A DNA stretch of 64,000 bases from Crossaster papposus (taxonomy: Eukaryota; Echinodermata; Asteroidea; Velatida; Solasteridae), in NCBI GenBank assembly GCA_037893245.1, contig JBAIAA010000597.1, positions 248,001 to 312,000 on the forward strand, given 5' to 3'. Position numbers and translations under genes: made by a program. This document shows positions 17,818 through 44,165 of this stretch, piece after piece; the stretch's first letter is position 1; every line of letters starts with the position of its first letter. The notes under the pieces were generated by a model that was not told where the DNA came from, did not search any database, and worked only from the letters and a program-made list of their open reading frames with translations.

Positions 17818-18177
17818 GCAGATTGCTTCGGGGTTGACGTTTTCTTTGATAAATTTCGAGTGCCTTGCTTACTGGACACAGGATCTATGGTAACTACAGT
17901 GACTGAAAGTTACTTTGACACGCACCTGAAAGGGAAGGGACCCCGACTTCAAAGCATTCCAGAACATTTCAAGCTTCTATCTGCTGATGGATCGAACATT
18001 CCATATCTAGGATGCTTTGAGGCTGATGTCAAAGCGTTAGGAGTCACAATTCCTTCTCGACTAATTTTGGTTATCAAGGGAACAACGGGTGGACCGCCGA
18101 GCCCGACACAGTGTATTTTAGGGATGAATGTTTTAGCAGAGTGCTGGAGACAGTTGGCGGTAATGGAAGACCAATGA
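17818..18177 (+). pseudogene. Ty3/Gypsy aspartic protease
   Basis: The retroelement protease cleaves Gag-Pol. The active-site motif LLDTGSMVTTV is encoded at about 17,869-17,901, with the D-T-G codons at 17,875-17,883. Further on, ILGMNVLAE is the second conserved block (usually ILG-x-N/D). This frame is shifted relative to the zinc-knuckle frame and is the same frame as the reverse transcriptase downstream. A single in-frame TGA (18,175-18,177) separates them, so the stop is probably a nonsense mutation within a once-continuous pol. Confidence 0.85.
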
Positions 18178-18228
18178 CATGTACACAGACTGAGAGATTA
18201 TCGCTCTGAACGTGTTTGGGAGAGAGCC

Positions 18229-20613: not shown

Positions 20614-21414
20614 GAGATGCGCAGTCGGCAAACGTCCCACCAGACGCACGAAACCACCCATGGGAACCATACGAGCCACCGCACCCCTTGAGATAGTGGC
20701 AATGGATTTTACAGTATTGGAGCCATCATCTAACAACTATGAGAATGTCTGGTTACACTGCCTGCCCCCAAGAAGTCTCGCTGGGTGGAATACCTCCCCC
20801 AGTTAGTGTCCAGTTACAACAACATCAAGCATTCAAGCACAGGCTGTGGGCCATTCTATCTTCTCTTTGGAAGAACAGCCCGCCTTCCTCAGCACTTAGT
20901 CTTGGGAGTGGAAGAGCAACAAATTTGTGGTGCCAATGTAGCAGACTACATCAAGAAGCACAGTGAGGCACTCGAGAAGGCACGACAGGTTGCCCTGACC
21001 AACTTGGAAAAGGCAGCAGCAGCGAGGAAGAACTACAATGATAGGGACATCTTCGAGAAACCACTTAATCTGGGAGAATATGTCTTGGTGAGAGATAGGT
21101 CACACCGCAGACGGGCCAAGATTCAAGATTTTTGGGAGGCTGAACCGTACATGATCGTAGAAGAACCCTATGAAGGTCAACCAGTCTACATCCTACGTAA
21201 TTCTGGTGGCCACCAGAAAGTTCTCCATGGAAGTGAGATTAAGTGCTGTCCCTGGAACGTGGCCCTTCCAGAGACAGACACGCCAATCAATCAATCCGTG
21301 ACCACTGAGAGTGACCTGACATCTGACCAATCCACTGGCCCCACCACCACCGAGCCTACAGATTCGGATAGTGGAACCGGGTTTGGGCGTGTGCTACTGC
21401 CCACACCACTATAG
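20576..21414 (+). pseudogene. Ty3/Gypsy integrase with deleted catalytic core
   Basis: The frame starting near 20,576 completes the zinc finger (CHQCERCAVGKRPTRR) and begins the catalytic core (PLEIVAMDFTVLEPSSNNYENV, first Asp of the DDE triad). Directly after (about 20,745) it joins LPPKKSRWVEYLPQLV (frame from 20,785), which in other Gypsy integrases lies about 110 residues further on. The second Asp and the Glu are therefore deleted. The rest is intact: SSYNNIKHSSTGCGPFYLLFG, a long helix, and a GPY/F-like C-terminal module (DFWEAEPYMIVEEPYEGQPV, YILRN). It ends at 21,414 after an acidic/Thr-rich tail. Confidence 0.9.
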
Positions 21415-21516
21415 GCTGACCTTGGTACCACTCCGGACTCTAATCTACAAGAGACTGACCAGAATACACATCAGGATCCTGAGGAGGACCTACTCACTGC
21501 GGCCGAACACCGCACC

Positions 21517-21927
21517 TTGGCAGAGGATAACGAGATGGGGGAGCCAGCTCCGGATGAATCCACTCAACCCAGCCTGGTTGAGCCTGTGCCAAACTCTATC
21601 TGTCGCGGAGCCAAGGTACCAGATATGAGGGACCCAAGGGAGCCAAGTCCATCTGCGGATGGCCGTTCCCTGACAACGGATGAGCCAAATGGACGGAGTG
21701 ACTCGGCGGCAGGTGGTCTTGATAGTCTAGCATCACACCCCACCATAGGAGGCAGTTCTGACCCGGCAGATCTTCAAAGGATGCAGAGACGTTCAGCGCG
21801 GAAGACTAAGGGGGGCCCCCCTAACAGGTACATGTATCCGCTTTCAAATGCATTGCATCTGTTGAAACAAATGATCGCTGCTGATGCTAGTGGAGACAGT
21901 ACAGACTATGATGCAGACTCTGAGTAG
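21517..21927 (+). pseudogene. Gypsy Pol C-terminal tail, frame-shifted
   Basis: A Pro/Ser/Asp-rich stretch ends in RMQRRSARKTKGGPPNRYMY (near 21,777-21,836). The basic R-R-S-x-R..P-x-R-Y pattern is characteristic of the very end of Gypsy Pol polyproteins (compare GRKVVRPSRY in the other Gypsy here). It is in a different frame from the integrase tail (21,414 stop), so at least one indel lies between. It has no independent function that I can infer. Translation ends at TAG, 21,925-21,927. Confidence 0.65.
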
Positions 21928-25735: not shown

Positions 25736-25957
25736 GGCTGTAATATGTCATTTGAACATTAACAGGTAAAAAGTGATTCTGGAGTACACTCTGCCAATAG
25801 CTGATAGGGTGAACACAATTTCAAAAGATCTATATTTGGCTACAACCTCTATAAAATGACAAGCGATTTTCAAATTTGCAGAGGTATCCATGATGATTGA
25901 TCCCAACAGTTTCAGTCTGAAAATGCACACAGGTCCCATTTAAGTCCATTCTAACCA

Positions 25958-26394
25958 TAGAGCTACATTACATTACTAGAGAGCTGGCTCGATGTACAAA
26001 GTGATGCGAGCTGGGCGCATCGATGTTTGTGCACAAACCTATGGAAAACTTAAAATTGTGTACGGCTTTTGTACGGCTATTTGCATATCTGCGTTTGTAT
26101 TCTATACAGTGCGTTATCGAAGCCGATACGCCCAAAACCGAAACGAATGATGAGCAAATGAGCACAAATGCGTGTGCATACCCGCGCGCTGCCGATGATT
26201 TTGCCTTTACTTTTTTTACTTGCATGACGCGCATAAGTTGTTTGCGTCTGTTCTACTTGCACGCGCGTTGCATTTTGTTTAATGTTCTACCAGCACGCAC
26301 ATGAATTCAAAATGTCTGCGTGAAGAATGGATTCAAAGTATCTCAGCGCATAAAAAATGAAGAGTTAGCGCTCTAGTAATTTAATATAGCTCTA
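25958..26394 (-). mobile_element. MITE family X, complete copy (33-bp TIRs)
   Basis: Termini: TAGAGCTACATTACATTACT.. (25,958-25,990) and, in reverse complement, TAGAGCTATATTAAATTACT.. (26,362-26,394). The interior is CpG-containing and includes AAAAGCCGTACA and TTTTGGGCGTATCGGCTTCG. A second, right-truncated copy in opposite orientation lies at 43,774-44,165 and aligns through the whole interior. That establishes this as a dispersed family of about 437 bp. No transposase is encoded, and the target duplication is not obvious. Confidence 0.88.
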
Positions 26395-26943
26395 TTATCC
26401 TAACTTAATCGTCCCAATCGCATTCCCGTTTCCTTGCTTTCTGCTCAAGTTTCCGCTTCTCGTTCATGACTTTGGTATTGTAACGAAATGCAATGCATAG
26501 GTGCTCCGTAGTTTGGCGCGCCATAGTTAGTCTGTGCTATTTTTAGAAGCGGGTATAAAAGCGAGTGTTGCGCACAGTGGAACGAGTCGAGCCGGGGAGT
26601 ACGCGTCAATCGTGTTTGATGTGCACGTGCTGACGTTATATTGAGAAGCTACAGTGTTGCGTTCTCACGGAGCGACTCGGGCCAGGACCGGAGATCAGCA
26701 GCGAATTGTGGACGTCGGCATCGCTTACTGTACTTGATCGTGAGTGTTGAGATGTATTTTCAGTAGTTGGGTGTTATCTACTAGTTTACTTAAAGCTAAT
26801 CGTGGGACTTGAAGAGATTTGCGAAGCACAAACAGTTCACTTCGTTGCACACCCTACCTCTCTGTTGTTCCTGGTGGTAGCTCAGGCATATGTGATATTC
26901 GGGGTTGTCATGTTTATATCTAGCTAAATAACTCGCTAATAAA
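26395..26943 (+). promoter_or_regulatory. LTR-like promoter segment with TATA box and polyadenylation signal
   Basis: A canonical TATAAAA in a GC-rich setting (GCGGGTATAAAAGCG, box at 26,554-26,560) is followed by a CpG-rich leader, a GTGAGT donor-like site at 26,740, and AATAAA at 26,938-26,943. TATA to poly(A) signal within about 380 bp on one strand is typical of an LTR or of the 5' end of a tyrosine-recombinase retroelement. It lies upstream of, and in the same orientation as, the Ngaro-like ORF1 (29,817), so it could be that element's promoter. No second copy was found to prove terminal-repeat status. Confidence 0.4.
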
Positions 26944-27080: not shown

Positions 27081-27265
27081 CCTTACCTTAAGGAATACCC
27101 TTACCTTAAGGAATACCCTTACCTTAAGGAATCCCCTTACCTTAAGAAATCCCCTTACCTTAAGAAATCCCCTTACCTTAAGGAATCCCCTTATCTTAAG
27201 GAATCCCCTCAACTTAAGGAATCCCCTTACCTTAAGGAATCCCCTCAACTTAAGGAATCTCATTT
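27081..27265. repeat. 18-bp minisatellite (CCTTACCTTAAGGAATCC)
   Basis: About ten copies of an 18-bp unit with variants TACC/AACT and GGAAT/GAAAT. It contains the palindrome CCTTAAGG. Because 18 is a multiple of 3, a forward frame reads as a Pro-Tyr-Leu-Lys-Glu-Ser repeat and a reverse frame as a Leu-Arg-Gly-Phe repeat. Neither has surrounding gene features. Confidence 0.92.
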
Positions 27266-28736: not shown

Positions 28737-29816
28737 GCATACCCACGCCATTATTAGCTGCCATTGCAACGTTTTACCTCCATGGTTTTACACTAATTTC
28801 GGTTTCGTTATATCTACTAGTTTATCCGTGTATTTTTGTCGATCATTAACTTTACAGTTAGCTGTACTTTCAATTCTGTTCATCATCGTGGCCAATGCTC
28901 TGACAATTGCAAAGAAAGGCTAAGACAAGGGATTGGAATAAAGTATCGCATGGTGTGAATTGGACGAGGGTGAAAGTGAAGGCCCTCACTAGCGGTGGGC
29001 CAAAGTGACATTGTTTGCAATTGCCTTCTTATCATGCTCAATAAAGCTATAAGGCTATCGACTGCCGGATTAGCTTCTTCATTAGAAACAATCATTTGCT
29101 GAATCGCGATAATTATTTTAAGAAGAATTTCTCTCGACAGCGCATTTTTGAAAATCATGTATTTAGGGTTCGCTATTGGCACCGCCGTGAACATAGAGGG
29201 CGACTGACCCATCGTCAGTCGCGATTCTGTCGGCACGTAGCTGGACGTGTTTTGCTCGAGGCTCAGGAAACTTGAACCCGGTACCACCGGACCGGGGTAT
29301 ATCTATAGTTTCACGTGAGGAGTCGAGGAGGCTCAGGGCAGGTTTGATAAGAGGTACAGGGGATAGAGGTTTGCCCTGCACGTTGAAATATTCTCTCATT
29401 AGGAAAGTATGGCGACGATTTAGTGCGTTTATTCTTGCGGCGCTAAATTCAATCAAGGTCTGCTTTGCACAGGGTCATTTCCACTTCGGTGAGCCGCGTG
29501 TATAATGTATTTATCTGTTTTAGAAATGCTTTTGTGTTTATCACAAAGATTGTACGTGCAGGGTAGGATCCTTCGTTGTTGGCATTTTGCTAAGGTTAGT
29601 GTTATTCAAATCGGGGTATTTACGCGCAACGAAATTCATAAATCCTTGCCAGAATATTCAGGGGGCTTTGTGCTAAGCCGAGAAACAGTCATCAGTGCGT
29701 AGCGCCTCGGTCGCTCTGCGTATTAGGGTGTGTCATACGAATGCGTTCGTTGCGGTTTGTAGTGCCTTCTCAATCTTCAGTTTGGACGGTTTATATTACC
29801 CTTAATTTCAGAAATA
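28737..29816. other. Presumed 5' leader region of the Ngaro-like element, no gene recognised
   Basis: Reverse frames of 134 and 97 codons (28,883-29,287 and 29,163-29,456) have no family that I can name and overlap each other. A splice-acceptor-like ACCCTTAATTTCAG ends at 29,812, four bases before the ATG of ORF1, so the mRNA probably has a spliced 5' UTR. Confidence 0.4.
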
Positions 29817-30245
29817 ATGGAAAATATGTTCGATCCAATCGAGGAGAGCGCAGATGCTTACGCAGAAGTCGTCAACGAGGGTGCTGGCCCTCTTTTTCGT
29901 GGACTGTGTGCCAGTTTCAAGGTCTCCGCGAAATGCTTTGAAGCCCTAATCGCGGACGGTTGGGACGATCCCGAACAATTCCAAGAACTATCCCCCGAGT
30001 GGCGAAATCACGTTCTCGCCTTGGCCCCTAACGGAGGACAGAAACGCAACTTGGAGAAAATGGTTGACCGGGTTGACGCCGGTCCTCTTAACGGCCCCGC
30101 CCCTAAGAAACGTCGCGTGCAACTCGACGCATCCTCTGAAGGCGCAAAGGATCAGGCGGGCCCGAGTGGTATTTCAACCGGGGATGCCGAGCCGAGTCAG
30201 GCTGCAGCGGCTGCAAATTCCGAATCCGGTCCAACGTCTTCCCAG
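29817..30245 (+). CDS. Ngaro-like retrotransposon ORF1 (gag-like), exon 1
   Basis: The ATG at 29,817 has an acceptor-like site just upstream. The exon runs 143 codons to a donor CAG|GTATGT at 30,246 and is phase 0. The N-terminus is acidic (FDPIEESADAYAEVVNEG). It contains a compact helical segment (CFEALIADGWDDPEQFQELS), then a basic patch (PAPKKRRVQL) like a nuclear localisation signal, and a Ser/Ala/Gly-rich low-complexity tail. By position and by exon 2's zinc knuckle it is the RNA-binding gag-like protein. If the intron were retained, translation would stop at 30,317. It has no obvious similarity to a host protein that I know. Confidence 0.68.
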
Positions 30246-33219
30246 GTATGTAGCTCCATGGTCTCATGTATTTTGATATCAGGGGAAGAGCCCCGTGCCA
30301 ATTGTATTTGTATGTAGCCGGGGAATTGCCCCGCATTAGATTGTATTTTGTTGTCGGGGGAATAGCCCAGTCCCAAACTGTATTTGCGTAGCCGGGGAAG
30401 TGCCCCGCATGAGATTGTATTTTGTTGTCGGGGGGAATAGCCCAGTCCCAAAATGTCGGGGGGAATAGCCCAGTCCCAAGCAGTATTTGCTTAGCCGGGG
30501 AAGTGCCCCGCATGAGGTTGTATTTTGTTGTCGGGGGAATAGCCCAGTCCCAAACTGTATTTGCTTAGCCGGGGAAGTGCCCCGCATGAGGTTGTATTTT
30601 GTTGTCAGGGCCAGTGCCAACTGTAAGTTTGCATATTTTAGCCGGGGGAGTGCCCTGCGCGGGATTGTATTTTATGTTTAGGGGAAAAACCCTGTGCCAA
30701 CCTGTTTTTGCATATCCGGGAAGAGTGCCCCGCGTACGTGAGTTTGTTTTGATGTCAGGGGAAGTGCCCCAGCCCAAATTGTATTTGCATTATAGGGGAA
30801 GTGCCCCGCGTGAGATGGCGTTTTGTTGTCTGGGAAAGCCCCCGCATCAAATGTGTATTCGCATATCCGGGTGAATTGCGTCGCGTGAGAGTGTATTTTG
30901 ATGTCGGGGGAAGCGCCCCGGGTAAAATTGTATTTTCGTATCCTGGGAGAAGTGTCCCGCGTAAAACCATAATTTAGAGTTAGGGGAAGCGCCCTGTGCT
31001 GAATTTATATTTGCATATCTAGGGAGAATTGCCCCTCGTGAGATGGTATTTTGGGGTCAGGATAAGGTCTCGTATCAATTTGTATGTGCATATCTAGGGA
31101 CAATTGTCCCTCGTGAGATTCTATTTTGAGGTCAGTGTAAGGTCCCGTTTCAAATGTTATTTGCATATATAGGGAGATTTGCCTCTCGTGAGTTTGTATT
31201 TTGAGATCAGTATAAGGTCCCGTGTCAAATTGTATTTGCATATCTAGGGAAAATTGCTCCTCGTGAGATTTTATTTGAGGTCGGTGTAAGGTCCCGTATC
31301 AAATTGTATTTGCATATTCCGGGTGAAGGGCTCTGTGTAAGTTTGTATTGGATGTCAGAGGAAGCGGCAGGGTCAAATGTTTTTGCATATCCAGGGAGAA
31401 ATACCGTGTGTAAGTTTGCATTTGTTGAGAGGGAGAGCGCCCGGGCAAATATATTTGCATACCCAGGGGAAGTGCCCCGTGTAAGATTGTATTTGGATGT
31501 TTTATTTTAGGGGAAACGCCCCGGGCCAAAACTGTATTTCAATATCCAGGGTAACGTGCCCCGCGTGGGATTGTATATTGATGTCGGGGAAAAGGCCCCA
31601 TGCCAATTGTATTGGAAAAAGAAAGGGGAGTGCCCCGCGTGTTTGGTGTTAAGGGAAGGTTCCCGTGTCAAATTGCATTTTATATCCAGGGGGTGTACTC
31701 TGCGAGGTTGTATTGGATGTCAAGGGAAGCCCTCGCGCCAAATTGTGTTTGCATCAATACAATGGGAAAGTCCTCGCGTGTGGCTGTATTAAATTCAGGG
31801 GAAGCCCCCCGTGCCAAATTGTATTTGCATAGGTCAAGAAGTGCCCTGCGTGAAATTGTTGATGTCGGGGAGGCCACGTGAACATTTGTATTTGTATAAA
31901 TACAAGTGCCCCACGCAAAATTGTATTAAATTTCAGGGAAAGCCACAAAAAGCCAGCCTAATTGTATTTTTGTAAACAAATTAATGGAGAGGAAAATATT
32001 CCACCTACAAAACTGTATTTGCCTATGCAGGGGAGTGCCCCGCGTACGTTGGAATTCTGTCTTAGAGTCAGTAATCCGGTGATCAAACGGCTTTTGGATT
32101 ATAAGGGTGGTGTGCCCTGCGCCAAATTTCATTGTGATATCGGGGATTCACCTCATGCCAAATGTTTCTGGATATGAAGGGGAAGTGCCCCGGGCGAGAT
32201 GGTGTTTTGCTATAGTGGGGAAGTGCCCCTCAACATTTGTCGTACTCTAGGTGCCTCTCACCAGATGTTATTTTGTCGGGACGGTGTAGTACTCGGAAGT
32301 GTATTGTATTATTTTTTACATTTTGATAAAGGGCAATTTTTCCTCACAAAGACTTTGATAGGAAGGGAAGGGCCCTTTATATCAGCTGTGGAGCAGTAGT
32401 GTCGTTTGGGGTCTCATAAGGGAAGGACCTGATTTACAAGGGGAACGCCCCGGGAAGTTATATTTATGGCGAGTGTCCCTCGACATCAATTTATAGTTTG
32501 CCACAAAGGGAAAGAGCCTCACAAAATTGATTTTGTAAGGAAAGAGGGTGCCTCGCCCAGAATTTGAAGGTTACTATAATAGGAAATTAAGGGTGGCACT
32601 TCACGCTTGGATTATTTGGGGAGAATGGGCGCATGTATTCATTGTACCGCCGGGCACTTTGTTATAGTAAGGTGTGCCGAAGTTCTCGGCGGTCAGGAAC
32701 CCGGGTGTCATGCGCTAAATTATGTTACCATGAGCGGATAGGCTCCACTGAAATGATCAATGGCGTAAGGTTACTGTCCCGCAAAATTATGTATTGCCCT
32801 CATAGGGGAAAGGCCCCGCTTTTGATTCTGCTGGCAGTCTAAGCAAGATGTCCAGCAATATATTGGTTAGAATTAGTACCCATTGCAATTTCTGACGGTA
32901 TAGCAAAGTACCTAATGCTTAAGTGGCTCGCTGTCAGATAAAGGATAGCCACAATTTTAGGCTGAGGGGAGGCGCCCCGTTTTGAGTTTGGGTGTCTAAT
33001 TTGCACGGGGGAGTATCTTGTTAAGTTCTCTCATTGCGAAAGCTTTAATATAATGGATCTCGTGAGCGGCCCCACGGCACCCTGGCACATGATGTTTGGG
33101 TGTCTTGGTTGGCACTAGGGCTTAACGAGTATAAAATTTGATCGGTCGAAATAAGGATTAGAGAGTGTGATTAGAGATTTTCTCAATGCTGTGGTATTGT
33201 ATTATAACAATCAATGCAG
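30246..33219 (+). repeat. Intron filled by a 74-bp minisatellite of phased mini-hairpins
   Basis: The 2,974-bp GT..AG interval lies between two phase-0 exons. From about 30,280 to at least 32,240, and more weakly to 32,480, it consists of a degenerating unit, clearest at 30,390-30,600. The unit is 74 bp, made of two half-units of about 37 bp: (A) GGGGAAGTGCCCCGCATGAG then TTGTATTTTGTTGTC, and (B) GGGGGAATAGCCCAGTCCCA then AACTGTATTTGCTTAGCC. Each half starts with a GGG(G)-A-rich-(C)CCC stem. GGGGAAGCGCCCC, GGGAGAATTGCCCC and similar variants keep the pairing although loops vary. The array is better preserved at its 5' end and decays toward 33 kb. Confidence 0.8.
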
Positions 33220-33612
33220 GCCAAGTCAGCGCTTGAGGTGCACAAGCCCAAGCGGCTCGAGTTGCTTAAAGCACGTTTGGAGACGGGCTACGATCGAAAT
33301 GTAGCGTATGTGATGTCCTTACTCCGGAGCTATGTGGATGAGTTTTCACCCTTGTCAGCGGAAGACGTGAAGGAGCAGCAGATGTATGTCAATCTGTTGG
33401 AAGATTGTAATAAGCATGCTCAGAGTAAGACACCAGGCATCGCAATGTATATATACAAGTCGGTCACAGGAGAGGATTTTGACAAGCGGCTGCGGTTTTC
33501 AAGAAAGCACCTCGGCCTCAGCGCACCCCCATCTGATTTAAAAGCGAGAGACGCATGCTTTAGATGCCGCAAGAGGGGCCACTTCGCGCGGGACTGCAAA
33601 GAAATACTTTAG
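33220..33612 (+). CDS. Ngaro-like retrotransposon ORF1, exon 2 with CCHC zinc knuckle
   Basis: Acceptor AATGCAG ends at 33,219. The exon is open for 130 codons plus stop (33,610-33,612) and is in phase with exon 1, giving a protein of 273 residues. It begins with a helical, capsid-like region (ALEVHKPKRLELLKARLETG, VMSLLRSYVDEFSPLSAEDV) and ends with the CCHC zinc knuckle CFRCRKRGHFARDC, the single-stranded nucleic-acid-binding motif of gag proteins. Together with exon 1 this is the upstream gene of the tyrosine-recombinase retroelement that follows. No frameshift or stop is seen, in contrast with ORF2. Confidence 0.78.
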   Translation, partial: AKSALEVHKPKRLELLKARLETGYDRNVAYVMSLLRSYVDEFSPLSAEDVKEQQMYVNLLEDCNKHAQSKTPGIAMYIYKSVTGEDFDKRLRFSRKHLGLSAPPSDLKARDACFRCRKRGHFARDCKEIL

Positions 33613-34118
33613 AAAACTTAAGCATGGGCTGCGATAGACGCATGCTAGTTAGTGGCTGTTTCATAATCCAGAAACATTGGTGGCGGGATTCATGTAGTTA
33701 ACAAATGAGGCGTCTCCATTGAACATTTAATGTTGGCAGTAATAATGTAACGGTGTTTAAGAAGTTTATGTAACAGTGGTTATTGGGTACTCGTTGGGCA
33801 GCTGGGGGAATGCAGGACCAAGTGTGCCATATATGAACGTATGCATTTGAGGAAAAGTTCCTCAGGATATAGAGAGATAAAAGTCGTGGTGGGGCGTACC
33901 AGAAAGTGTTTTCCCCAGTTGTGTAACTTTATGAGATGTGTGCAGTGGCGAGTTTACCATGGTTCACCTTGTATTTAGCGGGAAGAATAAATCATTCGCA
34001 AGGGCGTATATTCGGCTCAGAAGTGCGTAGTCCCGTAATGTATATTCCAGAACCCTTTTTATATTCTGGCCGAGTGCTCCTTTGTGGTTAAATTTAGGAG
34101 TACAAGAAGTATCTGCAG
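33613..34118. other. Region between ORF1 and ORF2 of the Ngaro-like element
   Basis: Non-coding by appearance. It ends with a plausible splice acceptor (GTATCTGCAG, ending 34,118) that would begin the ORF2 exon interrupted by the piggyBac insertion. Confidence 0.45.
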
Positions 34119-34165
34119 ATTCTCAAGAATCATGAGTGGGAGCGTTCATCAGCGCATCACTTTAA
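34119..34165 (+). pseudogene. Ngaro-like ORF2, 5' piece cut off by piggyBac insertion
   Basis: Starting after the acceptor at 34,118 the frame reads ILKNHEWERSSAHHF and enters the TTAA target at 34,162-34,165. Removing the 4,056-bp piggyBac element plus one TTAA copy continues the same frame without a shift into NPEAAQADRRDRGV at 38,224. The insertion therefore lies within a coding exon and its position shows the reading frame. This piece is inferred from frame continuity, not from a recognised domain. Confidence 0.6.
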
Positions 34166-34533
34166 CCCTTTCAATCCCACGGGCTCCAAAAAGAGCCTTT
34201 GTTGTGATATGCTTGGAACCCGTGGGCGACAAAAAGTCCCAAAAAGTCAAAAAGTTGCCATGAGCTTGGAGACCAAGGCAACTTATCTCACCAGCGAAAA
34301 CACTGCTTGAGCGTTATTGGTTTGGCGCCCTCTGCTGACAGAAATAAAGTTTTTGAAGTTAGCGCGGCATCCCATATGCATTGCATGCAGGCATGAATGT
34401 ACGTGTACGTGTACGTGAATAGGTTAGCTACCGGTCACGTGACTGACGCGACGCGCGACATTATAGCGTCGCGTCCCATGCATCCATTGCGGTCGAAGTA
34501 GGTTATACGTATCGCTGTTTTTTTGCAATCGGA

Positions 34534-34671
34534 ATGGAACAAATCCCCAATGATGACATTTTGGCTGAGATTTTAGCAGATAGTGATTCCGGATCTGACT
34601 TAAATGATGACACTGAAGAGTCTTCGGACGACGAGAGCATGCTCGGCGAAAACACAGCAGAACTTCAAGAG
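34534..34671 (+). CDS. piggyBac transposase, exon 1
   Basis: The ATG at 34,534 opens 46 codons that are strongly acidic (DSDSGSDLNDDTEESSDDES), the normal character of piggyBac N-termini. It ends at a strong donor GAG|GTAAGC (34,672). The intron of 490 bp ends at TTTTGCAG (35,161) and is phase 0, so exon 2 joins in frame. The start is chosen because it is the only ATG giving an acidic leader spliced to exon 2. The intron is unusual for the best-known piggyBac transposases but not implausible in a metazoan copy. Confidence 0.8.
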
Positions 34672-35161
34672 GTAAGCGCATGATACAGGCTTGAGTAGGT
34701 GCCCTCGAGTATAACGGAAATTAGAGTATAACTGTATTTATTTGATGTATGTACAGTGGCACTCAGTGCATGTACATCAAATGAATACAGATTACAGTCC
34801 TATAGAAATTTACCTCCACCCATAAACATGGTATAGCCTGTCGTGCAATTTCGCATCCAAAAAGATGCAGTAGTAGTATTCTTAACCTCAAATAAGAATA
34901 GCTTCGTAGGCCGTTTGGCCTGGTATTTAGACTCCGTATTATTATGTATTATATTTGGCAAGAATTTAGAAGATGATTCACTATGCCAATCACAGTCAAT
35001 ACCATACACCAGGCATTCACATTCATGACATATCTGAAACGACTATTGAGGCCACCATGATCGTTCTTTTCTCAGCGCAATATTCTTTTTAGGCATGTGC
35101 TGCAAATTAGCATTAACAAATATAGGACCGATAATCAAATTTTATCTTGCTTCTTTTGCAG

Positions 35162-36764
35162 CCTACCCAAGATGACGGCCATCCAAGTTCTTCCAAATCA
35201 AGAACCGGAAAAGCCAATTTCCGATCTGGTTGGGAACGACGAGACCACTACGATTGTGGGACTGTGCAGTTCACTGGAACTCCTGGCCCAACTGGCGACT
35301 TTGGAACACTCTCGGCAGTGGAGATCTTCAAGCTGTATTTTTGCCAACTCGTGTGGGATTTGCTCGTCGACGAGACTAATCGCTATGCACAGCAAACAAT
35401 AGACTCAAATCCTGAACAACAGTTCTCCTGGTACCCAACCAACGTTCCCGAAATGATGGCATTTGTAGCACTTATCATTGCTATGGGCAATAAACAAATC
35501 GCCTCAATATAGGATGTATTGGTCAACGTCAGAAATTTTAAAAATTCCCTTTTATCCGTCGGTAATGTCGATAAATCGTTTCAGTTCAATTCTTCGGTTT
35601 CTCCACATCTCCAATAACCAAATTCCTCGTGAATCCTCGGCTAAACAAGACAAACTTTCCAAAGTTCGGCCCTTGATAGAAGTCATTATCCCGAAGTTTC
35701 TTAACCTGTATAAACCTGCGCAGAATCTGTCTCCAGACGAGAGTATGTTGAAATTTAAGGGACGCTTAAGTTTTATTCAGTACATGCCCAACAAACCAGT
35801 AAAACGTGGGATGAAAGCATTTTCATTAAATTGTAGTAAATCCGGATACACGTGCAATTGGGAACTGTACACAGGTGCTGACAACACAAAAACTGTAAAG
35901 GATAAGGTACATGTAGATTCCGAGTCATCAGACTGCCATCCACCAAACCTGACAGTCCCTGGAAAAGTGGTTATAGAATTAGTCAAACCACTTCAGAATA
36001 AGGGACACGTCATATACTGTGATAATTACTATACAAGTCCGTCGCTGATAGCAAAACTGTCTGAACAAGGCTTTGGATGTTGCGGAACTGCTCGATATAC
36101 TGCTAAGGGAATACCCGAGGTCGCAAATCCAAAAAATCATAAAATGAAGAAAGGTAGCAACCCAATCTTTTTGGTGAAAGATGGGCAATTGTGCATGGTT
36201 TGGCAAGACAAAAAATCTGTAACATTTTTAACTAATGTCGGCAGCACTGCAGTGTCAAAAAAGCAAACTCGATGTAAAAAGAGCACTTCTGGTTTTCGTG
36301 AAGTTATGAAGCCCGAATGTATTTCATCTTACAATTTAAATATGGGAGGCACAGATTTAGCAGACCAGTGTTTTCAGTACTACAATCATACCCACAGAAG
36401 CTTGAAATGGTGGAAACGAGTTTTTTACCATCTTCTCAATATATGTATTGTCAATAGCAGAGTAATATTTAACAGCACAGCAGGGAGCAAAAATGTCAGT
36501 AACCTTGATTTTCGTATAGGGATTGTACAAGGCTTGCTATTAGGTTGGAAACGTAATGCAACAAGTCAGTTGAGATACCATATTCCTATTGATTTGGCAA
36601 GACAACAGCACTTTCCTGGCAAAAACCGCAATGGAAAGAAACGCGACTGCATTGTTTGTAGTAACCGCAAATTAGGCCGGCGAAAACAAACGGTGATTAT
36701 ATGTAAGCAATGTATGAAGCCTATGTGCATAGTTCCTTGCTTTGAGAATTACCATACCACTTGA
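35162..36764 (+). pseudogene. piggyBac transposase, exon 2 (one frameshift)
   Basis: A DDE/D transposase for TTAA-specific cut-and-paste transposition. The exon begins PTQDDGHPSS, then GTLSAVEIFKLYFCQLVWDL and MMAFVALIIAMG (to about 35,485). One base appears to be lost there, and the frame resumes at INKSPQYRMYWSTSEILKIP and runs to TGA at 36,762-36,764. Catalytic Asp codons: 35,880 (TGADNTK), 36,021 (YCDNYYTS) and 36,354 (MGGTDLADQ). The C-terminal cysteine-rich zinc domain is complete (CIVCSNRK, VIICKQCMKPMCIVPC). Total length, about 580 residues, fits the family. A single indel near 35,486 is the only defect that I see. Confidence 0.94.
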
Positions 36765-36776
36765 TTGTACTACATG

Positions 36777-36899
36777 TATTCCCCCCCCCCCCCCCCCCCC
36801 ACCCCCAAAAATCAATGTTGAGAAAATGAGGCGTCGGACGCACTTCAGGTTACACTCCAAACCAACATTGATTTGGGGGGGGGGGGGGGGGGGGGGGGT
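36777..36899. repeat. Poly(C)/poly(G)-capped fold-back in piggyBac 3' UTR
   Basis: Right after the transposase stop, C(~20)ACCCCC then AAATCAATGTTG (36,781-36,820) is mirrored by CAACATTGATTTG then G(~20) (36,862-36,898). A 41-bp loop (GAGAAAATGAGGCG..) lies between. The homopolymer caps make a stem of about 36 bp. It could be a small MITE that inserted into the 3' UTR, or a homopolymer-driven fold-back. It may be read inaccurately, because long G/C runs are error-prone in assembly. Confidence 0.75.
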
Positions 36900-37194
36900 A
36901 TAATTACTTATGATGTATGTCTGTACAGTAAATACATGTACAAGTAAATAGTTTGTTCCCAGGCAAATTGTTTTTATAATGGCTTTTGATGCATGTGTAT
37001 GCACCGAATACAAGTAAATGGTTCATTTTCAAGAAAATAACAAAGGAATTAAAAACAAAAATTATCATACAAGTTATTGTTTTTCCACATGTAAACAAAA
37101 TCTGAAACATGTGCCGTATTTATCACATGTTCTGAATTATTACCCGTTTGTATTACTTCCCCCCCCCCCCCCCGAGTGTAAATACGTATCTAAT

Positions 37195-37939
37195 TAGCTG
37201 TTTCGGTTTTTCACCGAAACAGCTTTTGTAATCGTTAAAGTTTTTTTTTTTCTTTTTTTTTTTTTTCTCCTTTTTCAGACTTTTCTCCATAGGATTTGCA
37301 CACGTTTTTTCAGACAATACACTTTGACACTTTAGTAATTCCGATCGACTTGAGACTTGGCATACACTTAGACAACCACCCAAGGACGGTCCTAGAAGAA
37401 ATTCGTCGCGATTACGTCATTCAAGGTCACGTGACTTCGCGTTAAAGGTTAAATTTTCCCCATAGGTTTTGTACACGTTTTTCTTCAGACTATTGACTTA
37501 GGCACTTCGGTAAATCCGACCGACTTGAAACTTGGCATACACTTAGAACACCACCCCTAGATGTTTCTGAAAGAAATTCGGCACGATTGCGTCATTCAAG
37601 GTCACGTGACGTCACATTAAAGGTTCACATTTTTCTCCCATTGGTTTTGTACACGTTTTTCTTTAGACTATTGACTTTGACACTTTAGTAAATCCGATCG
37701 ACTTGAGACTTGGCACACACTTAGACCACCATCCACAGACGGCCCTAGAATAAATTCGGCACGATTACGTCATTCAAGGTCACGGGGCGTCACGTTAAAG
37801 TTTCTATTTTTTCCCCATAGGTTTTGTACACGTTTTTCTTTAGACTATTGCCTTTGACACTTTAGTAAATCTGATCGACTTGAGACTTGGCACACACACA
37901 AGCCCATCACACACATATTGAAAGACACTCGAAACAGCT
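37195..37939. repeat. TIR-bounded tandem array, about 175-bp unit, inside piggyBac
   Basis: Four diverged copies of a unit containing CATAGGTTTTGTACACGTTTTT, CAGACTATTGACTT, CGACTTGARACTTGGCA and TCATTCAAGGTCACGTGAC start near 37,290, 37,460, 37,640 and 37,815. A 12-bp-arm hairpin (AGCTGTTTCGGT, loop TTTTC; 37,196-37,224) opens the block, and CGAAACAGCT (37,930-37,939) closes it. The array is therefore bounded by AGCTGTTTCG inverted ends, like tandem-repeat-bearing MITEs or Helitron-type elements known from marine invertebrates. It sits nested in the piggyBac 3' region. Confidence 0.82.
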
Positions 37940-38225
37940 CTGTGTTTGTTCACAAACACATGTCTAGTTATTTCATTATTGTGCTTTTACACTTACAAAA
38001 TAAATAGATGCACACAATTTGTTTTCCTTGTACACTTATTTTTGCAATCAGTTTTAAATACAAATATCTCAGCAAGTGTATATGTACAGTATGCATGTAG
38101 TGTGTTGAGGGCGCACTTTAATGAAATTGCTCAAAAAACAATGGGGCTAGATTCACACTGAGCTCCTAATTGCTGTGGTAAACAAGGGTAATCTCTTGCA
38201 TAGTGGCTGGGAGTGAAAGGGTTAA

Positions 38226-40077
38226 CCCCGAAGCGGCTCAGGCAGACAGGCGAGACAGAGGTGTTGGCTCTTGGGTGGACATAAATGGAAAGCCCGCTTC
38301 GGCACCGGAGGGATCCGCTCCAAGCCCAGCGGATGTTTTATCCAGAGGTAGTATACCAGATTTTGGTTTGCTCCGCTTTCGCGATCCCAATCTGTTCGTA
38401 GCAGGAGGTCTGCATGAACAGCCAGAGGTATGGGACGGTATATTGGCAGAATGCCCGGGTAACGGCCCACAGGTTAGACGTTGGCTCCGAGAGAGATTGG
38501 ACCTCTTCGAGTTCTTTCTGCCTTTCCAGGGTAGATACAGAGGAAGGGAATTCAATTCCAGCATTCCCCCACCCATGTATTTTCCGAACGCGCCTCTCTG
38601 CAAACGCTTCGTCTTTACCAATAAAACGATAACGAAGCGCATCATTGAAGGTTCGGTGGAATTGTTGGGTAAGGTGGGTGAAGTCAGCCCTCCTAGGTGC
38701 GTCAATGCACTCTCCGTTGAGCCAAACAAACACAGATTGGTCCTCTCCATGAAAGGTCCTAACCTTCGGTGTAAAGACACGCCATTCCATTTGGTGCCTC
38801 TGGGAGAGATTGTGAAGTCGATCAATCAGGGAGGTAGATTCTCCAGTACCGACGATGCACAAGGCTATAAACAAGTCCTGCTGTCCAAAAGATCAAAGAC
38901 CTTTTGTGGTTTCGAATGGGCAGGATTTTATTTTGTTGACACAACTCTGCCTTTCGGTTTCAAAAATAGCGCCTATGTGTACTCCACCATTGGGTTCTGT
39001 CTGTCAACATGGTTAAAAAATCGGGGTATTCACACTGAGATCTGGATCGATGACCGCTTCATTGGAGAGGCCGGAGGAGAGGGGCAGCCTAGATGCTAAG
39101 TGCTTTATGTTGTATCTTCCTTGCAGGGCTCAATGGAGTCGGTCGCAGGTGACGCCTACATCAGGGCTGCCAGGGCTTTATATGTGGTATGTTATATGCA
39201 GTCGAAACTGGGATACTTCATCAATCTCAAGAAAAGTCAACTTAAACCAGTAACGGCTATGGTCCATTTGGGTCTAGGAGTGTGCTCGAATTCCCTATCG
39301 TTTTGGATTCCGGAGAAGAAGAAGTGTTCATTCGCCCAAGTAAAGGAGGATATTCTATCCACTGGTCTGGTATCCCTAAAGACCCTCCAGCGGTTTATTG
39401 GAAAATGTCAAAGTTTTATCCTGGTGTTTCCAGCGGCCTCGCTGTTTGTGAGGGAATGTTGTGCCCTTTTGCCTGATTTGGACGACATCAGTCCAAAACT
39501 GATTTCTCGGGGCGTGCGAGACAAGATTTTATTTTGGCGCTTTGTCGACTCCTTTACTGACCCCATACCTTGGAGACAACAGCGCCATTTAACCATTCAA
39601 CTCAGTTTGGATGCATCGGGGTACAAATGGGGTGGGGTGTTGGTGCTTCCTGAGGGAGATATGACTTTTAGTGACTACTGGCCACCTAGCGTGAAAAACA
39701 TGACAGACATCTGCTACAAAGAGGCTCTAGCTCTATACCTTGTGCTGCAATCGGTCCTAGACAGGTTGTGGCATAGAAGAGTGGATGTGATCGTGGATTC
39801 ACAGAGTCTCTTTTTTGCATGGACACGACTAAGGGCTAGATCACAGGCGCTGGCCAGAATTATAAAGCTAATCTTTGCTCTCACCCTTCAAGCAAATTTC
39901 GACCTAAGGTTGCAGTGGGTTCCATCAGATATGAATCAAGCCGATCTACCTTCGCGAGAGCTATCAAAGGCGGATGCTCGACTCACAAGATCTCTTTGGT
40001 TGTTGCTTCAAGCGGAGCTTGGAGGGAGATCCGGATTTTCATGGGATCTCATGGCACTTCCTTCAAATGTTCCCTAG
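38226..40077 (+). pseudogene. Ngaro-like ORF2: reverse transcriptase and RNase H
   Basis: In frame with the 34,119 piece. The YR-retroelement (DIRS/Ngaro) type reverse transcriptase shows CKRFVFTNKTITKRIIEGSV, VEPNKHRLVLSMKGPN, FSSTDDAQGYKQVLL and LPFGFKNSAYVYST, with the catalytic box WIDDRFIG (39,043-39,066). An in-frame TAA at 39,097 interrupts it. The frame then continues with YIRAARALYVVCYMQSKLGY and FINLKKSQLKPVTAMVHLG. RNase H follows: LSLDASGYKWGGVLV (39,604 onward), KEALALYLVLQSVL, VIVDSQSLFFAW and PSDMNQADLPSR. A second in-frame stop, TAG at 40,075-40,077, separates it from the next part. An acceptor-like CTTCCTTGCAG (ending 39,127) raises the possibility of a small intron over the first stop, but no proper GT donor is present. 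Confidence 0.88.
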
Positions 40078-41031
40078 GGCAAAGACGGCTTGCCGTTGAA
40101 GTTCTTCTCAAGGTTTCCAGTTCCTGGTTCGTCTGGGGTTAACATATTTTCCCAGCAATGCCCTCGTAACGGGGAGCTGCATGCGTTTCCGCCATTTGTA
40201 CTTATACCCTCTCTCATCAAGCTGTTCCTGGAATGGAGTGACGTGGTCGTCACGCTAGTAGTCCCCAAACACCCACACCTGAAGTCACGGTGGCCATACC
40301 TCAGGTCCTTAGCAGAGCAGTCTCTGCGAATAGCAGAAGCCAGGCAGGTGGGGGTTCTGGAGTATCCGTCACGTGAGGGCTACGTTCGGAATACGATGGG
40401 CCTCCCGTTTGAGCTTTGGGGCCTCAGATTCTTTTTCCCTGCGAGTGTACGGATTGCCAGAAGGGTTCAACAAACCGAAAAGCACTCAGTGCTCGTGGTT
40501 TCTGACTCAATGTTCAGAGGAATGAGCAGTTTTGGATGGCCTGCTTTATTTAATGTTACACGGGCGGTTTTCGGTGGTGCTAGGTTGGAGACCTTATGCA
40601 TATCTCTAGCTTCGTTGTGTCAAATCCATAGGCCAGAAGTCGCAGTCCTTCATGGGGGCATCAACGATTTTGACAGGAACGCGGTTTGTTCAGCGGGGGT
40701 CAAGCAGCTGTTGAAGGGGTTTGCCTTAGCGGCCAAACAGTTGTGCATACAAAATCCAGGTGTGCGGTTTGTCATGTCAGGAATATGTCAAACGAGAAAC
40801 ATCAGCGTCAACTGTGCCGTTGCTACGGCAAATTCGGCCTTAAAAGAGCTTTGCCAGGAAGCAGGTTGGCTTTTTTTCTCGAACGACCACATCACTCGAC
40901 AAGACCTGGCGGACGAAGTCCACCTGACACACTGGGGCAGTTTGAAGGCGCATAGGCGTCTGCAGATGTTTTTAAGGAGTCTTCTTGGCATGCGCACAGG
41001 GGTCGATATAAAGCTGGGCATTGAAGCATAG
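40078..41031 (+). pseudogene. Ngaro-like ORF2 continuation: SGNH-hydrolase-like domain
   Basis: Same frame as the RT/RNase H part after the TAG. The start (LKFFSRFPVPGSSGVNIFSQ, LHAFPPFVLIPSLIKLFLEW, VVTLVVPKHPHLKSRWPYLR) is the usual end of the YR-element pol region. Then comes a module with SGNH-hydrolase blocks: VLVVSDSMFRGM (block I, S-D-S in place of G-D-S, 40,501-40,509), LHGGINDFDRN (block III G-x-N-D, 40,657-40,668) and ADEVHLTHWG (block V D-x-x-H, 40,912-40,923). From memory, a hydrolase of this type has been reported for Ngaro-group elements. Here the catalytic Ser and the Asp/His pair are kept, while the block I Gly is Ser. The stop is at 41,029-41,031. Confidence 0.8.
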
Positions 41032-41067
41032 GTTCTCTTATCTTATTTCATCTACTTTCATTTCCAG

Positions 41068-42317
41068 TTTGCCCGGTGGGAGTCTAGAATGAAAGAGCTT
41101 GACAGCAAGATCGACTTATTACCTTATAGCAGGCAGAAGAGCAGCCTTTCTCCAGCAAAACCGGGGTTTGGGCTACTTCACGGGCAGTGCAAATCTAGAC
41201 ACGGCCACTGCAGACGACGTAGTCAAGTTTTTGGTGGACCGCGATGCAAAAGGCCGCACTGATCAAGTTTACAAACTCGGGTGCATAAATTTGGGAAAGC
41301 ACGGCCCGTTTGGTTGTGGATGCAATCGCCATCTAGCTGCAGGCACAGTGGACTCTTATGTCGGCCAGCTCCGAGCCTTTTTTAATTCCTGCGGTAGGAC
41401 ACAATCATGGCGTCCAGAGTCCCGGGTTTCAAACCCATGCATCTCTATTCGAGTTAAAAAAATACATCAAGGCAGTGAAGCTTGAACAGGCAGAGGCACA
41501 TGTGACGCCACAACAGGCGGTTCCTATATTCTCCGACAAGATTCATTGGCTGGTTCAGGAGATCAGGAAACGAGTGCCCCCCTTGCAGGTTTCCGACCGC
41601 AAAAGTGTAACGCAGCAGTACATTCTCTACAGAGATCTGGCATTCTTTTTGTGTTTGTGGTGGGCAGGATAGCGGTCTTCAGATCTGGGGCGTACAAAAA
41701 CATGCGAAATAACCAGGATTGAAGGCGGAGACCTGATATTCAATCATACAGTCGGTAAAACGGTCAGAGAAAGCAGCTCTTCCCTCATAATTATACCCAA
41801 GCTGAGTACCGAAGGAATGGACCCGGCCGGCGCAGTTGACGAGATGGTGTGCTTTGCGCAGCAAAACGGATTTTGTCTAATAGATGGCTACCTCTTTCGT
41901 CCCACAGCACCAGATCACAAAAGCCTGAGAAACAAACCTTTCATCGGAAATGGTCCGAGTAAACGTCTTCAGCTCTATTTTTCTGCATCGCCAGACGCTG
42001 CGGATGTCTCCTTAAGGCCCCACAGGGGTAGGGCAGGTGTTGCGACAACTCTCCGTCTGCTCGGTGCCACCGAACAGCAAGTACTGGACCACTGTCGTTG
42101 GGCAAACCAGCGTACTTATAAACACTATACGGAAGTTGAGAGGGTTACTAGACGTAGCACGACAGTGAAGATGCTTAAGGACGCTCTGGAAGGGAGTGAG
42201 CACACCCATTCCCGTGAAGCTGACCTTGCCGGGGACTTTTACCGGACTCTCAACTCCGGTTTCCGGTCAGAGACGGCGTTCGGAGCAGCGGGCGGCAGAT
42301 TTGTAACGAGTCGATGA
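41068..42317 (+). pseudogene. Ngaro-like tyrosine recombinase
   Basis: The tyrosine recombinase inserts the circular cDNA of YR retroelements. An acceptor-like TTTCATTTCCAG ends at 41,067, followed by RWESRMKELDSKIDLLPYSR. One frameshift leads to the frame with FTGSANLDTATADDVVKFLV (41,099-41,485), another to 41,358-41,672, which ends in TAG and then directly continues RSSDLGRTKTCEI. The first catalytic Arg (41,673) is immediately after that stop. Then come PHRGRAGVATTLRLLG (H-x-x-R box, His 42,021, Arg 42,030) and CRWANQRTYKHYTE with the candidate nucleophile Tyr (42,117 or 42,126). The catalytic set is complete, but two frameshifts and one nonsense codon break it. No DIRS-type methyltransferase domain was seen, in keeping with Ngaro. 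Confidence 0.9.
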
Positions 42318-42319
42318 TT

Positions 42320-42850
42320 TTTGTGATTCAAGTCGAGTCATTTTGGGAGGGGGTGACTCGGGTCGAGTCGAGTCATTAGGTCAAGAAGGTCAAATCGAGT
42401 CGAGTCGAGTCGAGTCTAGTCTAGTCAGTGTGTGGTCGAGTCAATTCGAGTCACACATTATTTGACTACTACACAATAAATAAACACACTACGGAAACAC
42501 AAAGTGGAACTCCACAACACCGGTACTGTATGTTTGTTGTTGAAGGAAAACAGACAGCCGCTGTATATGTATGCCATGTATATGCTTATGTACATAATAA
42601 TTCGCTGACATGAACGTGACGTGAACATATCCGGCACTGGCGTAACCCATTGCAAATATTATTCAAAGTTTTGCTCTTATCTTGGGGACTCTAGTCTTAT
42701 TAGCCTTCGCTCGAGTCGGGCCAAGTCATTCTGGTGGGGGACTCGAGTCGAGTCGAGTCATTCCCCCATCGGGGCTCGAGTCGGGTCGAGTCGCTGGGGA
42801 TGTGGCTCGAGTCCAGGTCGAGTCGAGTCTTTGACTCGAGTCTTTACAGT
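42320..42850. repeat. (GAGTC)n-type imperfect satellite blocks
   Basis: Two blocks, about 42,333-42,450 and 42,700-42,845, are dominated by GTCGAGTCGAGTC words with interruptions (GGGTCGAGTC, GTCTAGTCTAGTC). AT-rich unrelated sequence lies between. They follow the recombinase stop directly, so they may belong to the 3' end of the Ngaro-like element, where split direct repeats are expected. I could not find a matching 5' copy. Confidence 0.8.
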
Positions 42851-43773
42851 TCTGGCGGACGGCCAGTCATAGCAGCATCAGGTGTGGAAAGTAGGAACGA
42901 CACTGACAGCTATAAGAGTAAACAAATAGTTAGAAAGACAGGCAGAGTAGATTTGGGTTTGGTACTCTGCTTAACTACCAGTTTATAGGAAGGTAAAACG
43001 AATCACCATGATTACAGTAAATGAAAAAGCCGGACAAAAATGCGATATGGGGCGAACTAATTGCGCCGTGAATGCGGGGCGATGATGGGTTTATGGACTC
43101 GTATTATGATTCACTCAATTGCACACGGAGTTCAGTCTATAAATACTCGCAAAAGTCTACGAAAATAAAGTGAAATGATCAAAATCGCCTTGTTGGCGCG
43201 CACTAGCTGCATGTGACAACTAATAGTGTTGATTCGGGTTTGTAAAGTTATATTTTCAAGACACAAGCGCAGAAATGCACTGCGTTAAAAACGTACAGCG
43301 TATCCCGCATCATGCACTTTTAACAATGAAAACGTAAATGAATGTAGGCCTAATCAAGCTGCTGCTTAACAAACAGACAACCAAGCAATAACAAACATTA
43401 CAAAAAATAAAAATACACCCTCGCTTTAGATTTGGGGTGAGATATGGGATGGTTGTGGGGTACAAAGTGGCCAAAAGGGGCTAAGTTTCGGGATGGAGCG
43501 AAGAATCGTTTCCACCCATACCTAAGCTTCATCGAGAAAGGAGACCGAGATGTGAACAGCGGTGCAAATAGAGTACTATTCAACCCCATCATGTCATCAT
43601 GCCTTGCACAATCTTAGTGAAGGAACGCGCACGCACCCATGAAGTCGAGGCTGCAGATCACGTTGCGGGCAGAATCGCTGGCACTCGATCACGGCGCGAA
43701 CCTCAGCTTGCGCTGGCACAAACTGTTATTCACGCCGTGATTCAAGGCCCGTGAGAGTGGAACGCACCCTATA
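42851..43773. other. Unrecognised sequence
   Basis: No domain, RNA gene or clear repeat. Longest open frames are under 90 codons. GC content seems moderately higher near 43,600-43,770. Confidence 0.4.
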
Positions 43774-44165
43774 TAGAGCTATGTTAAATTACTAGAGCGC
43801 TAACTCCTCATTCTTACGCGCGGAGATACTTCGAATTCATCCTGCGCACAGACATTTTAAATTTATGTGCCTGTTGTAGAACATATTAAAAAAGGATGGA
43901 ATGTATTTTTACCGTATACTCTAAATGCAACGCGCGTGCATTTATAACAGACGCGTCATACCAAATAAAAACGGCACGACAAAGCGAATACGCACATAAC
44001 GCATTTGCGATGATTACGCAGGGAAAACAATACAACGCTCATTTGCTGATTGTGCGTTTCAGTTTTGGGCGTATCGGCTTCGGTTACGCACTGTATATAA
44101 TACAAACGCGGATATGAAAATAACCGTACAAAAGCCGTACAAAATGTTGAGTTTTCCATAGAGTT
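43774..44165 (+). mobile_element. MITE family X, right-truncated copy
   Basis: Starts with the same 33-bp terminus as 25,958-26,394 (TAGAGCTATGTTAAATTACT.. 43,774-43,806). It aligns through AACGCGCGTGCA, TTTTGGGCGTATCGGCTTCG, AAAAGCCGTACA and TTTTCCATAG, then loses similarity after about 44,165, before the right terminus. Orientation is opposite to the first copy. Confidence 0.85.

Follow-up and report, generated by a model that had tools for sequence, protein, structure and literature searches.

The stretch of Crossaster papposus DNA analysed here (64,000 nucleotides; hereafter the window) contains, on its forward strand, a copy of a tyrosine-recombinase (YR) retroelement related to Ngaro and DIRS. 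Its gag gene, ORF1, is divided by an interval of 2,974 bp, about the 5′ two-thirds of which is a minisatellite of small hairpins. Comparison of copies brings it close to established that the interval is a conserved component of the element and is inherited by its copies along with the array; the interval is likely to be a spliceosomal intron. More tentatively, and at somewhat below even chance, the intron may separate genomic RNA from the gag and pol mRNAs, with the array perhaps marking the unspliced RNA in the fashion of a packaging signal.

The gag interval in the window and across the family

Two open frames, exon 1 (29817-30245, 143 residues) and exon 2 (33220-33612, 130 residues plus stop), join in phase 0 into the 273-residue gag-like protein proposed in an earlier note on this DNA. 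The CCHC knuckle read there in exon 2 is borne out by a Pfam match to the zinc knuckle (PF00098, E 1e-5; score 25.8 bits, cut-off 20.8), and the assignment of ORF1 to a retroelement by the reverse transcriptase (RT), RNase H (RH), SGNH-like and ALOG/recombinase sequences downstream. Exon 1 encodes an N-terminal domain with tblastn relatives of other types at 42-57% identity, and carries a basic PKKRRV patch that we take to resemble a nuclear localization signal. AlphaFold single-sequence models of the two exon products had mean predicted local distance difference test scores of 46 and 55 and were not used.

The interval between the exons (30246-33219) has the length and the GT..AG borders given in the earlier note, running from a CAG/GTATGT donor to an ATGCAG/GCC acceptor. 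Splicing at 30245/33220 is nevertheless put forward as a prediction, because an in-frame ATG (33214) stands two codons 5′ of exon 2, where it overlaps the acceptor. In a weight-based splice-site model, the donor is in the top 4 of 1,148 GTs between 26.4 and 44 kb. The acceptor is weak and its pyrimidine tract poor, with 306 of 1,122 AGs scoring equal or better.

The interval is found throughout the family. A search of the genome with the exon 2 protein gave 155 matches (634 candidates, 150 scored), and one with the joined ORF1 listed 145 (755 candidates, 141 scored). The earlier note had considered that other copies might be intronless and lack the array; none of the 145 listed matches is intronless or spans both exons, those to exon 1 stopping by residue 158 and those to exon 2 starting at residue 139 at the least. 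When matches on the same contig and strand were paired by hand, 31 of the 34 to exon 1 had an exon 2 partner (C336, C387 and C553 had none listed), at a spacing of 1,581-6,013 bp (median 3,153). In distant types the interval occupies the same position in gag but is filled by other arrays. Directly 5′ of exon 2, CAG is present in 16 of the 17 relatives with a placeable start, the exception being C1000; C177, whose start is not placeable, was left out of the count. At the matching place after exon 1, CAG/GT is seen in C567, C863, C191 (exon 1 frameshifted) and, as in the window, C1102; it is not seen in C579 and C135.

The idea, raised in the earlier note, that the array grew after insertion fails on comparison of copies, as the array is present, collinear and 91-96% identical, in three insertions whose flanks differ. 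The interval of C1102, a copy with flanks different from those of the window, is ~96% identical to it and its array is collinear. The two intervals differ by 87 mismatches in 2,940 aligned bases and by 14 insertions or deletions, among them adjoining ones of 22 and 7 bp in the array and others of 36 and 5 bp near 33 kb; elsewhere the copies differ at 10 of 429 sites in exon 1, at 7 in the first 321 bp of exon 2 and at 88 of 4,079 in pol. The array of C145 is 91-92% identical to that of the window; the two copies from C145 (99.5% identical over 6,156 bp) are counted as a single insertion, because their identity runs past the left end of the element. In two type VI copies with different 5′ flanks, C97 and C29, homology begins at a common point and stands at 97% identity across the interval. 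Meanwhile, the array units of the window differ by a median of 30% (Kimura two-parameter distance 0.40; 27 units compared), whereas in-frame stops put the age of the copy at ~0.013-0.017 substitutions per site, with an upper limit of ~0.06. Since unit divergence far exceeds copy age and insertions with different flanks share the array, expansion in the window copy after insertion has almost no probability left.

A second acceptor, common to relatives, is possible before pol. In four of the five copies read (the window, L038, L043 and L044; L039 is the exception) the pol frame opens right behind an AG with a stop codon directly 5′, and the acceptor has the form AG/GA followed by G or A. In the window this putative site is TTTAG/GAG, the pol start occupying 34098-34161, and the exon 1 donor joined to 34098 would stay in phase 0. 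In the displayed frames of the window, L043 and L044, the stretch from the pol AG to the conserved WVDI block contains no ATG, and between exon 2 and the pol site the window has no donor scoring above 3.

Architecture and turnover of the array

The earlier note described the intron as largely a 74-bp array with hairpins in each half-unit. The array and its two 37-bp halves are real, though they cover about the 5′ two-thirds of the interval and then decay. Tandem Repeats Finder (TRF) follows the 74/37-bp array from ~30267 to 31591, and wrap-around alignment extends it in more degenerate form to ~32240; on this basis and on comparison of units, the minisatellite with its G4-N5-C4 mini-hairpins is placed at 30268-32240. 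It is best preserved at its 5′ side and decays towards 33 kb, the degenerate 3′ part of the interval (32241-33219) holding scattered mini-hairpins. TRF arrays make up 45% of the interval, which contains 15 perfect GGGG-N5-CCCC and 38 GGG-N3-8-CCC; 500 dinucleotide shuffles give 5.8 ± 2.1, but the repetition itself raises the observed count. An Rfam search of 29000-34200 at E 0.1 found no match.

Nineteen introns were sorted into 12 array types by repeat unit, not by tree: I (window), II (C567, C579, C1000), III (C863, C343), IV (C135, C745, C191), V (C552), VI (C97), VII (C279, C123), VIII (C744), IX (C585), X (C177, C90), XI (C22) and XII (C482). For several relatives, 1.5-3.6 kb upstream of exon 2 was taken in. 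TRF finds arrays in 18 of the 19, at a coverage of 6-81%, and none at score 50 in C579. Types vary freely in unit sequence, in array period (10-124 bp) and in the length of the interval (1.6-6.0 kb).

Hairpins were counted as perfect 4-bp stems with loops of 3-12 nucleotides and compared with dinucleotide shuffles. A loop of five gives the strongest excess in 6 of the 12 types (I, II, III, IV, VIII and IX; z 5.8-23.7), for which the binomial p is 5e-4 with types that are not fully independent. Eight of the 12 types and 12 of the 19 introns exceed z 4 at loop 5, as against 1 of 13 completed controls; four of these controls exceed z 4 at some loop length. Types VI and VII pass this threshold with other loops on top (3 and 10, respectively), and type X peaks at loop 8 with a loop-5 z of 3.9. 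Permutation of consensus units gave hairpin values of 0.03 for the A half, 0.05 for the whole unit and 0.12 for the B half of type I, 0.02 for II, 0.17 for III, and 0.000 and 0.009 for IV, with 1 of 12 controls below 0.05.

Types II and IV have an identical 17-nt hairpin, CAGAGGACGGGCCTCTG, in common, and with hairpins masked their spacers show no significant similarity. Masked spacers are similar at p ≤ 0.05 in 2 of 36 type pairs (I-V and III-V), the rate expected by chance; an exact 12-mer is common to types I and V (0 of 300 shuffles). By eye, a single stem pair differs on both sides between types I, VIII and IX (GGGG/CCCC) and types II, III and IV (GAGG/CCTC), and in type VI the GAGG/CCTC stems recur with different loops. 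Judged from the sequences, the array turns over fast and a short G-arm/C-arm hairpin recurs in most relatives.

Two other observations concern these types. In relatives (L045 at about 2100; types III and IV) exon 1 homology starts directly after an AG, and in type II after a TAG stop; a further 5′ intron in relatives is possible, lost in the type of the window, whose exon 1 has an in-frame ATG. Type VI (C97, C29, C463, C409 and others) comprises well over ten copies of near-equal score with open exon 2 frames of 183 residues, and was presumably active recently.

Readings of the intron and its array

Retroelements are expected to lose introns once spliced RNA is reverse transcribed. In the reading that we favour, a single full-length RNA would be transcribed from the element, and the intron would persist because it is the unspliced RNA that serves as the reverse-transcription template. 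Splicing of the exon 1 donor to 33220 would make Gag, and to 34098 an exon-1/Pol fusion. Because the array sits between the donor and both acceptors, only unspliced RNA would hold it, and its most likely job would therefore be to mark or hold back that RNA. One route could be weak binding of the Gag zinc knuckle at many sites, the G-containing 5-nt loops, a logic like that of the retroviral packaging signal psi; another could be that the array slows use of the weak acceptor. Three points speak for such a mark: the position of the array precisely between the donor and the two acceptors, the retention of the interval in every exon pair found, and the recurrence of the small hairpin with its G-containing loop. 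Splicing control and RNA packaging, both suggested for the intron in the earlier note, are possible roles. A fuller version is possible if rather doubtful: the gag intron would itself be a signal-bearing satellite of mini-hairpins whose sequence is renewed from type to type while its architecture is kept; it would tag unspliced RNA as the genome, and a single donor used with two acceptors would give both Gag and Pol.

A number of results weigh against this reading. The earlier note held that stem pairing is kept although loops vary, and a covariation check does not bear this out: with 51 half-units of the window aligned without using pairing, Watson-Crick pairs occupy 144 of 200 stem cells as against 140.5 ± 3.2 with columns redealt (351 of 2,000 reach 144), so that pairing inside the array is not above chance. 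Conservation is no higher in stem columns than in spacer (0.85/0.80 versus 0.82/0.80), the loop being about level with both, and G.T and A.C stem mismatches are about equal (18 and 16). Over its first 900 nt the array folds at z +0.41, 14 of 20 shuffles doing at least as well, and substitutions do not spare stems in comparison with either C1102 (stems 10/344, spacer 26/1007) or C145 (17/344 and 44/1007). Thus, with no excess pairing, no stem constraint, no folding excess and even substitution between copies, the hairpins of the well-preserved array are explained by common descent of its units. The degenerate stretch after 32300, taken alone, has 45 of 78 cells paired versus 39.4 ± 2.8 (83 of 2,000 shuffles reach 45), and the degenerate 3′ part folds at z -2.0 (1 of 20 shuffles as good).

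The other types add to these points. Covariation with strict units was reached by 387-1,000 of 1,000 shuffles in all ten sets; an apparent excess with loose units in four of eight hairpins (3, 37, 47 and 0 of 1,000 shuffles; 220-913 in the other four) was gone with strict units and was rejected. G.T in stems is not preferred to A.C (49 versus 38, p 0.28), and the folding energy of consensus units is unusual in 5 of 18 arrays versus 4 of 48 controls (p 0.055). In all 10 hairpin sets from types II, III and IV (five introns), stems are slightly better conserved than spacer, which consensus-anchored alignment alone can yield. Types V, XI and XII have no hairpin excess in the loop-length count, and V fails the strict tests; the gag introns of C22 (L063, XI) and C482 (L065, XII) carry purine-rich arrays of 10-12 bp. 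Replicate introns fall under the loop-5 z of 4 in C1000 (3.1), C279 (1.3) and C90 (3.5). Finally, the C145 copies are without 30107-30266 (the end of exon 1 and the donor) and 31909-39319 (including exon 2), with the array retained.

We hold it equally likely that the intron is needed for splicing-based expression and the array in it is a neutral minisatellite, whose hairpins pause or switch reverse transcriptase, so that hairpin units multiply, and are tolerated in intron space. The free variation of unit, period and interval length, the lack of covariation and stem constraint, and the hairpin-free arrays of XI and XII all fit such an origin. A loop of five recurring in unrelated-looking arrays fits it poorly, as do the 17-nt hairpin common to II and IV despite dissimilar spacers and the scarcity of hairpin units in other arrays of the same DNA (1 of 12 in one test, 4 of 48 in another). 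A different possibility is that no splicing takes place there and exon 2 is a separate frame with its own upstream ATG on another transcript. In its favour, the window and 11 of 17 relatives have an in-frame ATG at codon -2, 16 of 17 have at least one somewhere 5′ of exon 2, and the acceptor scores weakly; yet CAG stays in 16 of 17 while the codon -2 ATG is gone in C1000, C552, C585 and three type IV copies, C585 has no in-frame ATG in the 25 open codons before exon 2, and exon 1 ends in CAG/GT in phase 0 in several types. A TGCAG acceptor would also look like ATGCAG, and we consider a separate start improbable. Still a little less probable is a DNA-level element, with the hairpins or palindromes as binding sites for the recombinase/ALOG domain or for a host protein. 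Strand-symmetric pairing with no G.U excess would suit it, but the arrays lie inside gag, not at the ends where a recombinase would act, and they persist despite sequence change.

The host element, its neighbours and known systems

The whole copy (29173-43579, ~14.4 kb including an inserted piggyBac) was delimited by three insertions with different flanks, those of the window, C1102 and C145: homology begins at 29173, at CTATTGGCACCG, and stops at 43579, at ...GAGTACTAT, with unrelated sequence beyond. The piggyBac lies in pol at 34162-38225 (PF13843, E 3.4e-68; TTAA at both ends) and is missing in C1102. RT and RH (38224-40077) were placed by three-frame reading and weak Pfam matches below cut-off, and contain in-frame stops at 39097-39099 and 40075-40077. 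An SGNH/GDSL-like hydrolase domain follows at 40078-41031 (PF13472, E 4.3e-4, under the Pfam cut-off), with GDS-like, GxND and DxxH sequences recognised by eye that we take to be SGNH motifs; it lies between RH and the recombinase in the same frame as RT. The ALOG DNA-binding domain (PF04852, E 6.6e-13) and tyrosine recombinase occupy 41093-42317, traced through their frames and broken by one or more frameshifts and a stop. Recombinase catalytic motifs were seen in this copy by eye alone, and a Pfam search of 41673-42314 gave no match. Given its stops and frameshifts, the window copy is dead. Viral contigs searched with RT and exon 2 yielded no confirmed relatives.

Several repeats stand nearby. 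A dispersed chimeric repeat matches parts of 31918-33322 joined to unrelated sequence at 17 loci in 15 places, two pairs adjoining (L009-L016, L019, L032-L037, L040 and L041). Its long intron matches to the window are about 74-79% identical and its exon matches 90-97%. Because 9 of the 17 loci also cover some of the opening 102 bp of gag exon 2, the repeat more likely derives from an element, of another type, and construction of the intron by its insertion was rejected; ARAGORN found no tRNA-derived head in the nine loci given. A ~440-bp repeat flanks the element as an inverted pair (25957-26395 and 43773-44161), the left copy having 34-bp inverted ends of its own and looking like a miniature inverted-repeat transposable element. 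The 70%-identical inverted repeats at 26039-26395 and 43773-44161 were rejected as element ends, as other copies end at 29173 and 43579. Outside the element, 27081-27259 is an 18-bp array with the palindromic core CCTTACCTTAAGGAATCC, and 16926-21927 holds open frames that by eye resemble Ty3/gypsy gag-pol.

In the available portions of PMC9210276 and PMC4157794, Ngaro-type YR retrotransposons share gag, RT/RH, SGNH hydrolase and YR with the present element. RT/RH and a tyrosine recombinase are both found here, the ALOG/YR part at E 6.6e-13 and RT and RH weakly, below Pfam cut-offs. An SGNH hydrolase takes the place of a methyltransferase, for which no match appeared at E 0.1 (GDSL, E 4.3e-4, is itself below cut-off). 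In Xenopus Ngaro, according to the same portions, SGNH comes after YR, whereas here it precedes YR. Of the split repeats A1-B1-A2-B2, an A1-like copy of the left end lies near the 3′ end in C145, and no A2 was found in the window copy, where the best candidate matches at 24 of 46 ungapped positions. ALOG-bearing DIRS1-type retroposons are reported from cnidarians, molluscs, echinoderms and amphioxus in the part of PMC3537659 available, with a Zn-knuckle Gag, RT-RH and a recombinase with ALOG. The present element likewise has the knuckle (PF00098, E 1e-5) and ALOG fused to YR (PF04852, E 6.6e-13; YR part broken and seen by eye). Those retroposons carry an inactive adenine methylase, in contrast to the SGNH-like domain here; no Pfam match to adenine methylase or to a DIRS1-like methyltransferase appeared at E 0.1, although an inactive domain of remote similarity might be missed at that threshold. 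Of inverted terminal repeats and internal complementary regions of the DIRS1 kind, no more was seen than one inverted similarity near the ends, 27 nt long and weak (78%, E 1.3).

The word intron has no occurrence in the available part of PMC3537659 or in the main text of the YR-element papers searched for it, and titles and abstract openings of the open-licence literature searched disclosed no YR element with an intron satellite. The nearest precedent found for an intron and a minisatellite in one retroelement is given by the Ogre/Gmr9 long terminal repeat (LTR) retrotransposons, large elements with a spliced gag-pol intron as given in the accessible text of PMC3305785 and PMC3735527; here the intron is predicted from sequence. 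By that text, the Gmr9 array is outside the intron, in the segment separating the coding region from the LTR, and the element is an LTR element. Splicing separates Gag mRNA from genomic RNA in copia and BARE (PMC3735527, accessible text), as proposed here, though the piece removed is pol (2,950 nt) or 104 nt and no satellite is described there. Retroviral Gag captures unspliced RNA at psi through its nucleocapsid part (PMC7157774, accessible text), and the likeness of the array to psi is one of analogy, psi being short and single whereas the array here is of kilobase size.

With numerous members of diverse sequence inside a single genome, the family allows the packaging reading to be tested directly against the neutral one. 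That a large interval has been retained in each of the 31 exon pairs found, with arrays in 18 of 19 introns, offers a natural experiment on how a retroelement tells its genome-length RNA from its own mRNAs, and the arrays themselves may serve as one on the origin of satellites inside mobile elements.

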